38,694 nucleotides of DNA from positions 1 through 38,694 of the forward strand of contig JALVDI010000174.1 in the NCBI GenBank assembly GCA_027009115.1, read 5' to 3'. Source of the stretch: Polyangiaceae bacterium (GTDB taxonomy: Bacteria; Myxococcota_A; Polyangia; Polyangiales; Houyiibacteriaceae). The position numbers and the translations under genes were made by a program. Below, in pieces: positions 33,752-38,694 of the stretch. The notes under the pieces are model-generated. The model was given only the letters and a program-made list of their open reading frames with translations, searched no databases and had not been told where the DNA came from. Position 1 is the first letter of the stretch. Each line of letters starts with the position of its first letter.

Positions 33752-36013
33752 TCACTCTTCGGGCGCGAACATGCGCTCGGCGACCGGTGCGGCCGCCCGG
33801 TAGGGAGGGGGCCACGGCAGCTCGTAGCCGAGCTCAGCAGCGGCGCGGCGGGTCAGGTAGGGGTCGGCCAGGTGAGCGCGCGCCAGCGCGACCAGATCCG
33901 CGCGCCCCGCCACGAGGATCGTGTTGACACGGTCGTGGTCGAAGATGCTCCCCACCGCGATAGTCGGGACGCCCACCTCGTTGCGGATGCGCTCGGAGAA
34001 GGGCGTCTGGTACGCGCGGCCGTAGACCGGCTGCTGCTCCGGGGTGACCTGTCCCGTGCTCACGTCCACGATGTCCACGCCGCGCTCCTTGAGCAGCGTG
34101 CAGAGAGCGACGGCCTGCTCGATGTCGAAGCCGTCAGGCACCCAGTCCGTCGCGCTGATGCGCACGCTGAGAGGGCCGTCCCACACCGCGCGAACGGCCT
34201 CGAAGACCTCGAGGGGATAGCGCGCTCGGTCCTCCAGGCTTCCACCGTAGGCGTCCGCCCGCCGGTTCGTGATCGGGCTGAGGAAGCTCGAGAGGAGGTA
34301 GCCGTGGGCCATGTGGAGCTCGAGGAAGTCGAAGCCGCAGCGGCGCGCACGCCGAGCCGCCCGGACGTGCTGCTCGCGGACGCGCACCATGTCCTGGCGC
34401 GTCATCTCCCGGGGCGTACAGTTGGGTTCGTAAGGGATCGGCGAGGGCGCAAAGATGGGCCAGCGCTCGGACTTCGGGAGCGGTTCGTTCGTGCCTTCCC
34501 AGGGCACCTTCGTGGCGCCCTTTCGACCCGCGTGCCCGAGCTGGAGGCCGATCTTCGCTGGAGAGTGCGCGTGGACGAACTCCACGATCTCGGTCCAGGC
34601 CGCCTGCTGTGCGTCGTCCCACAGCCCCGTGCACCCCGGCGAGATGCGAGCGTCGGGCGCGACACCGGTCATCTCCGCCAACAAAAGCCCCGCGCCACCG
34701 ATGGCCCGAGACCCCAGGTGCACGCGGTGCCATTCCCCCGGCACCCCATCGACAGCCGAGTACTGGCACATCGGCGACAGGACGACCCGGTTGGGGATCG
34801 TCAGCCCGCGCAGCGTGAAAGGGAGGAACATCGGCGGCACGACGGCCTCGGCACGGACCCCCTGCTCCTGCATGTACCAGCGGTCGACGGCCTCGATGTA
34901 CTCGGGGTCGCGGCCTCGAAGATTCTCGTGGGTGATCCGCCGAGTGCGCGTCAGGAGGCTGAAGGTGACGCGCTCGGGCGGGTGCTTCAGGTGGCGCTTG
35001 GACTCCTCGAACCATGCCTGCGCTTGCCGCGCCGATTTCTGGATGCGCGCCGCCGGATCCCGGCGAGCCCTCTCGTACTCGCTGAGCGCCGCCTCGACGT
35101 CGCCCCTCCCGTGGTCGGCCAGCACACCGGCGAGCGCGATGGCGTCTTCCATGGCCAGCTTCGTCCCCGAACCGATCCCAAAGTGCGCCGTGTGGGCGGC
35201 GTCGCCAATGAGCACGACGTTCTCGTGGTGCCACGCCTCGCAGCGGACTTCCCGGAAGCGGATCCATGCCGAACGGTTGGCCAGGAGCGGATGGCCGCCC
35301 AGCTCTTGTCGAAACAGCCGGCCGCAGTATGCGAGGGTCTCCTCCTCCGTCGCCTCGTGCAGCCCCGCGTTGCGCCACGACCGCTCGTCGCACTCCACGA
35401 TGCAGGTGCTCGTGTGCGCATCGAACGAATAGGCGTGGATCTGGAAGAGTCCGTGTTCGTTCTCGCGGAAACTGAAGGTGAACGCCTCGAAAGTCTGTGG
35501 CGTACCGAGCCAGATGAAGCGTGCCTTGCCCTCCTGAACCGTCGGACGGAAACGGTCGGCATAGAGCGTGCGCGTCTTGGAGTTGATTCCGTCGGCAGCC
35601 ACGAGCAGGTCACAGTCACGGCGGAGCGCGTCCACGTCATCCACCTCGTGCTCGAAGACGAGCGTGACCCCGAGCTCTCGAGCCCTCGCCTGAAGCAACG
35701 ACAAAAGCCGCATCCGCCCGATGCCACAGAAGCCGTGGCCCCGGCTGCGAATCACCCGATGGATACCGTCCCGCCAGAAGTGGGTGTCGATCGCGTCCCA
35801 GTAGACGAAGTCCTCACGGATGGCGTCGTAGCTCGGACGGTCCGCCTCTCCGAAATGACCCAGGGTCGCCGCCGAAAACACGACCCCCCATCCGAAGGTG
35901 CTGTCGGCAGCGTTCCGCTCGAAGACCGTCACCTCGACGTCGGGGCGCGCCTTCTTGAGCAAGAGGCTCAGATAGAGGCCGCCAGGCCCGCCGCCGAGAA
36001 CATGGACTCGCAC
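33752..36013 (-). CDS. Fused FAD monooxygenase and OYE-type reductase (anthraniloyl-CoA / salicylyl-CoA type)
   Basis: 753 residues in two flavin domains. The N-terminal FAD monooxygenase (about 1-385) has [17 protein letters not shown] (5-21), [14 protein letters not shown] (135-148) and the second FAD motif [25 protein letters not shown] (267-291). The C-terminal old-yellow-enzyme domain (about 393-740, YqjM-like) has [27 protein letters not shown] (491-500), [29 protein letters not shown] and [12 protein letters not shown]. This fusion is known from 2-aminobenzoyl-CoA monooxygenase/reductase and from proteins named salicylyl-CoA 5-hydroxylase/oxidoreductase. Such enzymes hydroxylate, and in the first case also reduce, an aromatic CoA thioester. 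No CoA ligase is in the window, so the substrate is open. The GTG 36013 start lacks a strong ribosome site. Confidence 0.92.
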
Positions 36014-36067: not shown

Positions 36068-37747
36068 CTATTGGAAGTGGTAGCTGAGCCCGAGGGACAC
36101 GATGTCGAAGTTCGACGTGTAGCGCCCGGTGTTGACCACGGTGCCCTGCCCGAAGTTCGACGGACCCGTCGAGGGGGGATAGCCGCGCAAGCAAGTGCCC
36201 TGCTGACAGAGCTCGCCATAGCTCGCGTCGGCGCTGACTTGCGTGATCCGCGCGTCCGCCGGAGAGACCGTGGTCGCGACCTGCTGGATGTGCGCATAGG
36301 CGAGCGAGAGGTCGAAGCGGCCGAACCGGAGAGTCAGCCCCAGGTGGGCGCCGAAGCGCATGAAGGGCAGGAAATCGAGCTGCTCGTAGCCGTCCTCGAC
36401 CCCCTTCGTCTCGAAGGACGCACCCAGCCGAATGGCGAGCAGCCCAGGCATCACGTTGTAATCGCCGCCGAGGCGCACCGAGAGCGTGTCCTTCCAGTTG
36501 TGCACGAGATTCAGGCTCGGGGGCACGGGCGCCGGAATGCCCGTGTCGGCGATGATGTCCCAGAGCCCGTCGGCGGAGTCGGGATTGGCACCGAGGTCGA
36601 CTCGGTATCCATCGACGTTCGAGTTGCGTTCGTAGACGACGTCGAGCTCGATGTCGAAACGCTCGTTCGACATCGGGTCCTCGACGCGGTCGCTCAGGCG
36701 CGAGACGGACCGCGCGTCCACGGGACGCGGAGCGACCCGGTCGGCATATCGGATGCCGAAGGCGAGCTGCCACGGAGCGGGCGCGACGAGCCGCGAGTTC
36801 GGGATCTCGAGGGTCTGAAGGATCGCCTCGCGGTAGTAACCGGACTCGAGCTTGACCGTGCCGTCGGCGTCGATGCCGTCGGTCCAGGTAAAGGAAGCCA
36901 TGACGTCGAGGTTGTCGTGGGGGACCGCATGCGCCGAGACGACGATCCGGGGCACGAACGAGTCCGTTGCGTCGAGGGTCGTGTAGATGTCGTTGGCGAA
37001 GTCCTCACCGCGACGGGCGCGCGTCACGTTCTCGAAGTGTGCGCGCGCGAAACCGGAGCCGAAGCTCGCACCGACACGAAAGCGCGGATGCGGCGCAAAG
37101 CCGACACCAACCATGGGGAACGCAAGAAGCAGCTGCGACTCGACCAGGTTGTAGCGCGAGGGGGCCGGGAGACCGTCGACGATGCCCCGATAACGCCGGT
37201 CACCGATGCGCTGGCTGCCGCCCCACTTGGTGTGCGCGATGCCCGCCGGAGCGACGAACCCAATGGACACGCCGACCATCTCGTGCACACGCCAATTGAG
37301 GATCAGCTCCGGGATCACGCTCGGCGGGCCCGAGTTGCAGACGCGCGGCATGGGCCGATCCGGGATGCCGCTGATGTCGTCGTTGAAAGCACTCGGGTTG
37401 AACTCGTCGCCGCTCTGAACCCGGGCGTCGGGCTCCCGCGAGGGATCCGGGCCGTTCGTCTCGTAGGCCGGCGTTTCCCCATGCCGCAGGTAGGTCCCGT
37501 CTCGCTGAAAGCAAGCGTCGTAAAACGCGGCGTGAGCTTGCAGCGTGAGCTGGAGCCCGCTCTCAGCTGCAAGGTTGGCCGGGTTGTAGAGGAGCGCCAT
37601 GCCGTCGCCGGGGCGCGCGAAGCCCGCGCCGCCGCGCCCGAGCACGTTGGTCCCTGCGGCAGGGAACTCGACGCCGCCCGCCTGAACCCCGGCCGGCGCG
37701 CCGAAGATCCCCAGAGCCAGCACCACCCCGATGATTCGCTTGGTCAT
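36068..37747 (-). CDS. OmpP1/FadL/TodX-family outer-membrane transporter
   Basis: 559 residues. Signal peptide MTKRIIGVVLALGIFGAPAGVQA leads to GGVEFPAAGTNVLGRGGAGFARPGDGMALLYNPANLA, the characteristic FadL N-terminus (the hatch region). Repeated amphipathic strands follow, ending in FDIVSLGLSYHFQ with a C-terminal aromatic residue, as in outer-membrane barrels. FadL/TodX proteins import hydrophobic compounds such as long-chain fatty acids or aromatic hydrocarbons. The length exceeds the usual 430-460, mostly through extra loops with Cys (CFQRDG..., CQQGTC). It lies 54 bases upstream of the fused flavoenzyme gene in the same direction, suggesting uptake of that pathway's substrate. ATG 37747 is chosen by the signal peptide. 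Confidence 0.9.
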   Translation of the reverse strand: MTKRIIGVVLALGIFGAPAGVQAGGVEFPAAGTNVLGRGGAGFARPGDGMALLYNPANLAAESGLQLTLQAHAAFYDACFQRDGTYLRHGETPAYETNGPDPSREPDARVQSGDEFNPSAFNDDISGIPDRPMPRVCNSGPPSVIPELILNWRVHEMVGVSIGFVAPAGIAHTKWGGSQRIGDRRYRGIVDGLPAPSRYNLVESQLLLAFPMVGVGFAPHPRFRVGASFGSGFARAHFENVTRARRGEDFANDIYTTLDATDSFVPRIVVSAHAVPHDNLDVMASFTWTDGIDADGTVKLESGYYREAILQTLEIPNSRLVAPAPWQLAFGIRYADRVAPRPVDARSVSRLSDRVEDPMSNERFDIELDVVYERNSNVDGYRVDLGANPDSADGLWDIIADTGIPAPVPPSLNLVHNWKDTLSVRLGGDYNVMPGLLAIRLGASFETKGVEDGYEQLDFLPFMRFGAHLGLTLRFGRFDLSLAYAHIQQVATTVSPADARITQVSADASYGELCQQGTCLRGYPPSTGPSNFGQGTVVNTGRYTSNFDIVSLGLSYHFQ

Positions 37748-37942: not shown

Positions 37943-38694
37943 TTGTTCTACTATTTCGGCTACGGCTCCAACCTGAGCGTCGTCTCGCTCCGCGCAAAAG
38001 GCGTCGACCCACTCGCGAGCGAACCCGCCATCCTCTCCGGCTGGCGCCTCGTCTTCGACATCCCGGACTTCTTCCCCATCGAGGGCGGCACCGGCAACAT
38101 CCGGCCGGAGAAGGGGCACGCGGTGCACGGCGTCGTGCACGCCTGCCGAGATGCGGACCTCTCGACCCTCGACACGCTCGAAGCGCTCGGCGTGACCTAC
38201 GAGCGCGTGGAAGCCTCGGTGGTCACCTATGCTGGCCGGCGCCTTCGCGCGTTCGTCTATGTCGGTCTGCCCGAATGCGTTGGCGAAGACGACGTCCCCT
38301 CCGAACGCTACCGCAACATCTTGGTCGCCGGCGCAACGGACGTCCGGCTCCAGCGCGACTACATCGAGTGGCTCCGGGGCATCCCCACCAAGCCACGACC
38401 CAACCCTCCGCCCTTCGTCGTCCCCGACGCACTGCCGGTGTTCTCACTCGGAGAGCTCGCGAACAGCCCAACCTTGGTAGGGCTGCACGGAGCCGTCTTC
38501 GACATGTCGGAGGCCCGCCCCCGCCACGAGTACCTCAAGGGCCTCCTCGGCGGGCGCGACGCGACGCTCCTCTTCCTCAAGAGGATGGACACGAGCGTGG
38601 GCGACGAATCCTTCGAACAGCTACGTCGCGGCGAGTTGAACGAGGCCCAGCGCCGCTACCTCAACGCCTACCTCCACGAGTTTGCCCGCGAGTA
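37943..38694 (+). CDS. Gamma-glutamylcyclotransferase-like protein fused to a cytochrome-b5/MAPR-like domain (3' end at window edge)
   Basis: 250 residues are visible; the last bases TA could be the start of a stop codon. The TTG 37943 start is supported by GGGAGG six bases upstream and by FYYFGYGSNL beginning directly, the usual start of the family. The GGCT domain (about 2-150) has YGSN (7-10), WRLVFDIPDFFPIEGGTGNI, VHGVVHACRD and the TLEALG segment with the expected acidic residue (E80). From about 165, FSLGELANSPTLVGLHGAVFDMSEARPRHEYLKGLLGGRDATLLFL resembles cytochrome-b5-like MAPR domains (GRDAT motif), which bind haem in eukaryotes. GGCT-type proteins release 5-oxoproline from gamma-glutamyl peptides. 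The fusion suggests haem- or ligand-controlled activity (inference). It is probably cytoplasmic. Confidence 0.85.
   Translation, partial: MFYYFGYGSNLSVVSLRAKGVDPLASEPAILSGWRLVFDIPDFFPIEGGTGNIRPEKGHAVHGVVHACRDADLSTLDTLEALGVTYERVEASVVTYAGRRLRAFVYVGLPECVGEDDVPSERYRNILVAGATDVRLQRDYIEWLRGIPTKPRPNPPPFVVPDALPVFSLGELANSPTLVGLHGAVFDMSEARPRHEYLKGLLGGRDATLLFLKRMDTSVGDESFEQLRRGELNEAQRRYLNAYLHEFARE

Follow-up and report, generated by a model that had tools for sequence, protein, structure and literature searches.

Human IDO1, with the reductase and b5 that serve it, is among the closest described counterparts of the protein reported here. Passages of one source state that NADPH-cytochrome P450 reductase (CPR), with or without cytochrome b5, supports the activity of IDO1 in vitro, and that the operation of such systems in vivo is unclear (PMC13142367). 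A 2014 review presents b5 plus the reductase as the route for IDO1 (PMC4032907). The cellular reductant of IDO is still under debate. The bacterial gene analyzed here appears to combine an IDO-type haem domain, a CPR-type reductase and a cytochrome b5 in one chain instead of three proteins. Unlike the human system, it has no detected FMN domain, lacks the tryptophan-site arginine, and carries additional GGCT (gamma-glutamylcyclotransferase) and MAPR domains.

Two other groups of proteins share parts of this arrangement. Members of the IDO-related superfamily of His-ligated haem proteins have a similar haem domain and include enzymes that use substrates other than tryptophan, but in the present protein a reductase and b5 are part of the chain itself; the published account of the superfamily nowhere uses the words reductase, fusion or fused in its text. 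Self-sufficient P450-reductase fusions and nitric oxide synthase also join a haem oxygenase domain to a CPR-type reductase, and PDB searches with the reductase part match proteins of both kinds. They differ in that the present protein has an IDO-type His-ligated haem, and cytochrome b5 in place of the FMN domain. Among the open-access PMC papers that literature searches listed, judged by title and the start of the abstract (a scope that leaves subscription papers mostly outside), none describes an IDO-reductase-b5 or a GGCT-MAPR fusion.

A reading frame that very probably continues on a second contig

The window, which is the whole stretch of DNA analyzed, comprises the 38,694 nucleotides of contig C174 from a Polyangiaceae bacterium. 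From a TTG start, an open frame (37943-38692, + strand) reaches the contig end without a stop and runs off it. The 250 codons at 37943..38694 (+) therefore appear to be the 5' part of a gene of ~1,555 codons, because the frame continues on another contig of the same genome, C154 (L022). The last 99 bases of the window (38596..38694, +) overlap the start of C154 with 2 mismatches and encode the same 32 residues. On C154 the frame is open for 1,337 codons and adds 1,305 residues beyond the overlap, so that the joined contigs yield a protein of 1,555 residues. As inferred from this join, the window frame is about the first sixth of the protein.

The earlier note described the frame as a fusion of a GGCT domain and a MAPR-like domain. 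That fusion is real, but the note missed the cut at the contig end and the further domains; what it described is, by the sequence join, a fragment of something larger, and the giant IDO-reductase-b5 protein is the main finding. Stand-alone GGCT-MAPR proteins of 263-267 residues do exist, and the assembler left C174 and C154 separate, as would be expected if the window gene were a plain two-domain protein and C154 unrelated. We regard this as very improbable. The two contigs encode identical protein in their overlap, window residues are 53-68% identical to giants versus 40-50% to stand-alone proteins, and a chance join of contigs is unlikely because eight relatives carry the whole protein in one unbroken frame.

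These eight giants (L002, L003, L004, G043, G002, G034, G707 and G703) have lengths, as used in the residue comparison, of 1,425 to 1,618 residues, and the G043 giant lies on a single 10.3-Mb contig. Together with G000, in which the protein is split, and G704, whose contig begins inside the MAPR domain, they make up ten giant genomes. The giant is rare: it is present in 4 of the 377 genomes of the phylum sample, to which G002 adds one. In the phylum of G398, five of 58 genomes match the IDO-reductase-b5 model end to end.

Upstream of the gene, its divergent neighbor (36068-37747, - strand) looks by eye like an outer-membrane protein of the FadL/OmpP1 type, with no NCBIfam match. Two genes upstream of the giant, also on the other strand (33752-36013), lies a bifunctional salicylyl-CoA 5-hydroxylase/oxidoreductase (NF006101, 1096.4 bits against a threshold of 1078), which may hint at aromatic-compound metabolism nearby.

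GGCT and MAPR-like domains, fused and alone

The first 150 residues (37943..38392, +) form a GGCT domain, as the earlier note had read them. Pfam GGACT matches the window protein with E=1.4e-11 (45.4 bits; cut-off 22.8), AIG2_2 matches with 3e-10, and human GGCT aligns with E=1.5e-5 (2pn7). For the complete relative L005, an AlphaFold2 model (built from 13 sequences; pLDDT 93.9, pTM 0.86) has the same fold (2rbh_A; Z 23.1, rmsd 2.0, 160 aligned). Within the YGSN motif (residues 7-10, 37961..37972, +), G8, S9 and N10 are invariant in all 15 sequences compared. Equally invariant is Glu80 (38180..38182, +), which the 2pn7 alignment places at the catalytic glutamate of human GGCT, which we take to be Glu98; the glutamate is kept in 9 of 9 giants. 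Thus the domain shares with human GGCT its fold, motif and catalytic position, differing in its fusion to a MAPR domain and in that its activity here is predicted.

The second domain spans residues ~160-250 (38420..38692, +), with its last ~10 residues on C154. Foldseek, fold comparison and a profile search all place it with MAPR proteins. A profile of 15 homologous regions, searched against 177,635 PDB sequences, ranked three MAPR-type proteins at the top (1t0g, E=0.0024; 1j03, 0.0035; PGRMC1 4x8y, 0.0052), followed by true cytochrome b5 at 0.11. Residues 162-262 of the L005 model superimpose on PGRMC1 (4x8y_B) with Z 9.8 (rmsd 2.6, 88 aligned), compared with Z 6.9 for bovine cytochrome b5, and Foldseek matched 4x8y_A with E=4.7e-3 and probability 1.00. 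The MAPR-like reading of this half thus agrees with both profile ranking and structure prediction, whereas a direct search with the Cyt-b5 model, a check proposed in the earlier note, remained below threshold (E=0.18; 12.3 bits, cut-off 23.7).

PGRMC1 holds haem via Tyr113, without the b5 histidines (PMC4802085). At this position the window has Lys199 (38537..38539, +), and tyrosine occurs in none of the 15 sequences. Because the haem tyrosine is missing throughout, we classify the domain, by alignment, as a MAPR-like fold and not as a haem-binding MAPR member. A haem link at this domain, raised in the earlier note, is consequently not kept as the default. Prokaryotic MAPR-like proteins (cytb5MY) are already known, as part of one source describes (PMC10093951). 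The present domain shares the MAPR-type b5 fold with these proteins and PGRMC1, differs in its fusion to GGCT and its missing tyrosine, and adds to the known set a MAPR fold without that residue. It may be a docking or ligand module instead of a haem site of the PGRMC1 type.

The order GGCT then MAPR recurs, as the earlier note had asked to be checked: 12 of 12 loci found among genome contigs, from several phyla, align over residues 1-250. Algoriphagus, Motiliproteus, Gallionella, a Gammaproteobacterium and G811 carry stand-alone versions, whose lengths, given above, are counted from the homologous start. Three neighbors recur beside them: a phosphoesterase, a protein of 238-243 residues without a listed family, and a kinase-AAA protein of very large size, which in the L008 copy has GAF and GGDEF domains as well. 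G326 contains a distant GGCT-MAPR-like frame (L070:108-1052, - strand; 315 codons; E=9e-28 over query positions 2-260), a possible third branch.

Glutathione synthetase is near the stand-alone gene in six of eight genomes checked. It is on the same contig in G404, G405, G811 and G406; in G401 and G402 its proximity follows from position arithmetic only, and in G400 and G403 it is not nearby. In G404, the one operon read further, the run continues with GshB, DNase II and glutamate-cysteine ligase family 2. Of all the evidence, this gene context points most strongly to glutathione or gamma-glutamyl compounds as what the GGCT domain acts on, and it lends indirect support to the link with gamma-glutamyl turnover suggested in the earlier note. 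The GGCT-MAPR pair thereby gains a genetic context in glutathione synthesis. The GGCT domain would cleave a gamma-glutamyl bond and release 5-oxoproline; its target may be glutathione, a gamma-glutamyl peptide, or a gamma-glutamylated substrate or product.

In Algoriphagus, a single-strand run (L120:5053-16441, -) comprises GGCT-MAPR, a 238-residue protein of no assigned family, a 1,806-residue kinase-type protein, GshB, DNase II, GCS2 and a HAD phosphatase.

IDO-like, reductase and cytochrome b5 domains

Sequence and structure comparison gives the domain order of the ~1,555-residue protein as GGCT, MAPR, IDO, FAD/NADPH reductase, cytochrome b5, a helical region and an unassigned C-terminus. 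On the G043 giant, Pfam places GGACT at 4-108, IDO at 333-616 (E=1.8e-35), NAD_binding_1 at 959-1087 and Cyt-b5 at 1140-1212 (E=4.1e-20). In the protein of the window genome, the second b5 domain, encoded on C154, matches Cyt-b5 with E=7.8e-15, and both axial histidines of a cytochrome b5 are present. NCBIfam and PDB searches show that the reductase part resembles CysJ, P450 reductase and nitric oxide synthase. It has the FAD and NADPH domains of the CysJ/P450 reductase group, without a detected flavodoxin domain: FMN-binding flavodoxin had no Pfam match in L104 or in three giants of which all or nearly all was scanned. Across ten giants, the proximal haem histidine, the b5 histidine pair and the NADPH-site glycine are each kept in 10/10, and the FAD-site arginine in 9/10. 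The serine that follows this arginine is kept in 8/10.

Beyond the b5 domain, a helical region leads to an alpha/beta end of ~110 residues, which by reading is missing in L104 and L105. A STAS-like character, read by eye, was not adopted and the end is left unassigned, since no assignment came from Pfam on C-terminal pieces of four giants, from a PDB profile search, or from Foldseek, whose best E was 0.014 with a poor model (pLDDT 59.5, built from 3 sequences). At L104:9945-11069 and L105:3657-4793, an adenylate/guanylate cyclase gene overlaps the 3' end of the giant.

We aligned 22 IDO domains, from seven giants, L064, the smaller IDO-b5 proteins L078 (Gallionella) and L093 (G469), four proteins of an IDO-cNMP-binding type, and eight conventional bacterial IDOs. 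The conventional set comprised six of ten with E below 1e-87 and two from a further search; L045, L046, L050 and L053 (extracted in the wrong frame), L055 (a weaker match) and L062 (below cut-off) were left out. L078 and L093 form two long branches of unsure placement in the resulting tree. The proximal haem histidine is invariant in 22/22. In contrast, the position that binds the tryptophan carboxylate, presumably R231 of human IDO1 by alignment with that protein, is arginine in 8/8 conventional IDOs and in 0/14 divergent domains. In the giants, a stretch of ~17 residues just after it is deleted.

On these residues, the giant domain is best called IDO-like and is not filed as an IDO, and free tryptophan is an unlikely substrate because the arginine that would bind it is missing. 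A strong Pfam IDO match, the presence of IDO1 and IDO2 as the best PDB matches and the universal proximal histidine would all suit an ordinary tryptophan-cleaving IDO with extra domains. We find that explanation improbable, given the altered tryptophan site, a separate tryptophan dioxygenase in the genome of the window, and a conventional IDO in addition to the giant in G158.

Several relatives have other architectures. L064 (1781-6166, - strand) lacks GGCT-MAPR and consists of IDO, reductase, b5 and helical regions followed by two cNMP-binding domains. A protein resembling EgtC-type glutamine amidotransferases, below cut-off, is encoded beside it (669-1751, + strand) and is possibly another gamma-glutamyl enzyme. 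In four Myxococcota proteins (L065, L066, L067 and L068), a divergent IDO domain precedes what reads by eye as a cNMP-binding domain; L065 and L066 have a further C-terminal domain.

Oxygenase and sensor readings of the giant protein

We consider it probable that the gene encodes a self-sufficient haem oxygenase of the IDO type, a prediction made from sequence. NADPH would reduce the FAD of the reductase part, FAD would reduce the b5 haem, and b5 would reduce the ferric IDO-type haem and so permit O2 binding. With O2 bound, this haem would oxidize a substrate, probably one other than free tryptophan. The proposed path most likely mirrors, by analogy, the way in which P450 reductase and b5 support human IDO1 in vitro. 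This reading is favored by the continuation between contigs, the eight unbroken giants, the Pfam and PDB domain matches and the conserved cofactor residues. The smaller IDO-b5 proteins, the IDO1 precedent and the link of GGCT to glutathione genes also favor it.

Some observations count against the oxygenase reading. The R231 position is not arginine in 14 of 14 divergent domains, and FAD_binding_1 is below the Pfam cut-off in G043 and in the window genome's own protein (it is above cut-off in L004, L064 and L104). The FAD-site serine is threonine in 2/10 giants, and giants are rare (4/377). The reading is also weakened because, of seven genomes with a stand-alone GGCT-MAPR that were searched, six show no IDO-like match (L010 and L012 were outside that search), so that the front end need not serve an oxygenase. 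Gallionella, which has a stand-alone GGCT-MAPR, carries its IDO-b5 gene elsewhere in the genome. A fuller proposal is more tentative and, in our estimate, somewhat short of even: bacteria would have evolved an oxygenase of the IDO type permanently wired to an NADPH reductase and b5 of its own, whose GGCT-MAPR module acts on a gamma-glutamylated aromatic compound, either a substrate or a product of the haem pocket, to uncap or recycle it.

The main rival is that the haem and flavin chain reads the state of the cell, as a sensor of redox, oxygen or haem, and signals through second messengers or phosphorylation, by way of C-terminal regions and neighboring genes, without a catabolic role. In G703 the end of the giant is overlapped by a cyclase gene, and in G704 such a gene comes after the giant; the L064 variant ends in cNMP-binding domains, and a histidine kinase (L002, L003 and L103) or a Ser/Thr kinase (L025) adjoins others. 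In Gallionella the IDO-b5 gene comes after a receiver gene, and a stand-alone GGCT-MAPR gene adjoins that for a kinase-AAA-GAF-GGDEF protein. This neighbor support is weak, as such genes are common in these genomes. Because the window and L004 have no such neighbor, the C-terminal end matched no family, and a full NADPH-driven chain exceeds the needs of a sensor, we judge a sensing role unlikely, at perhaps one chance in a handful.

If the fuller proposal holds, the fusion would show independently, from outside mammals, that a reductase plus b5 is a native drive for IDO-type haems. Having an IDO-type haem, NADPH/FAD reductase and b5 in one chain makes the question of IDO reduction testable, and the giant may give a self-contained catalyst of the IDO type.

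Two other contexts were considered. An anti-phage defense role was rejected: neither the G043 giant nor a GGCT-MAPR protein had a PADLOC match at 1e-5, and the kinase-AAA neighbor matched kinase models only. Among 72,556 plasmid records, GGCT-MAPR had no match; the IDO piece had seven, at 25-30% identity, three of which are annotated as indoleamine 2,3-dioxygenase.
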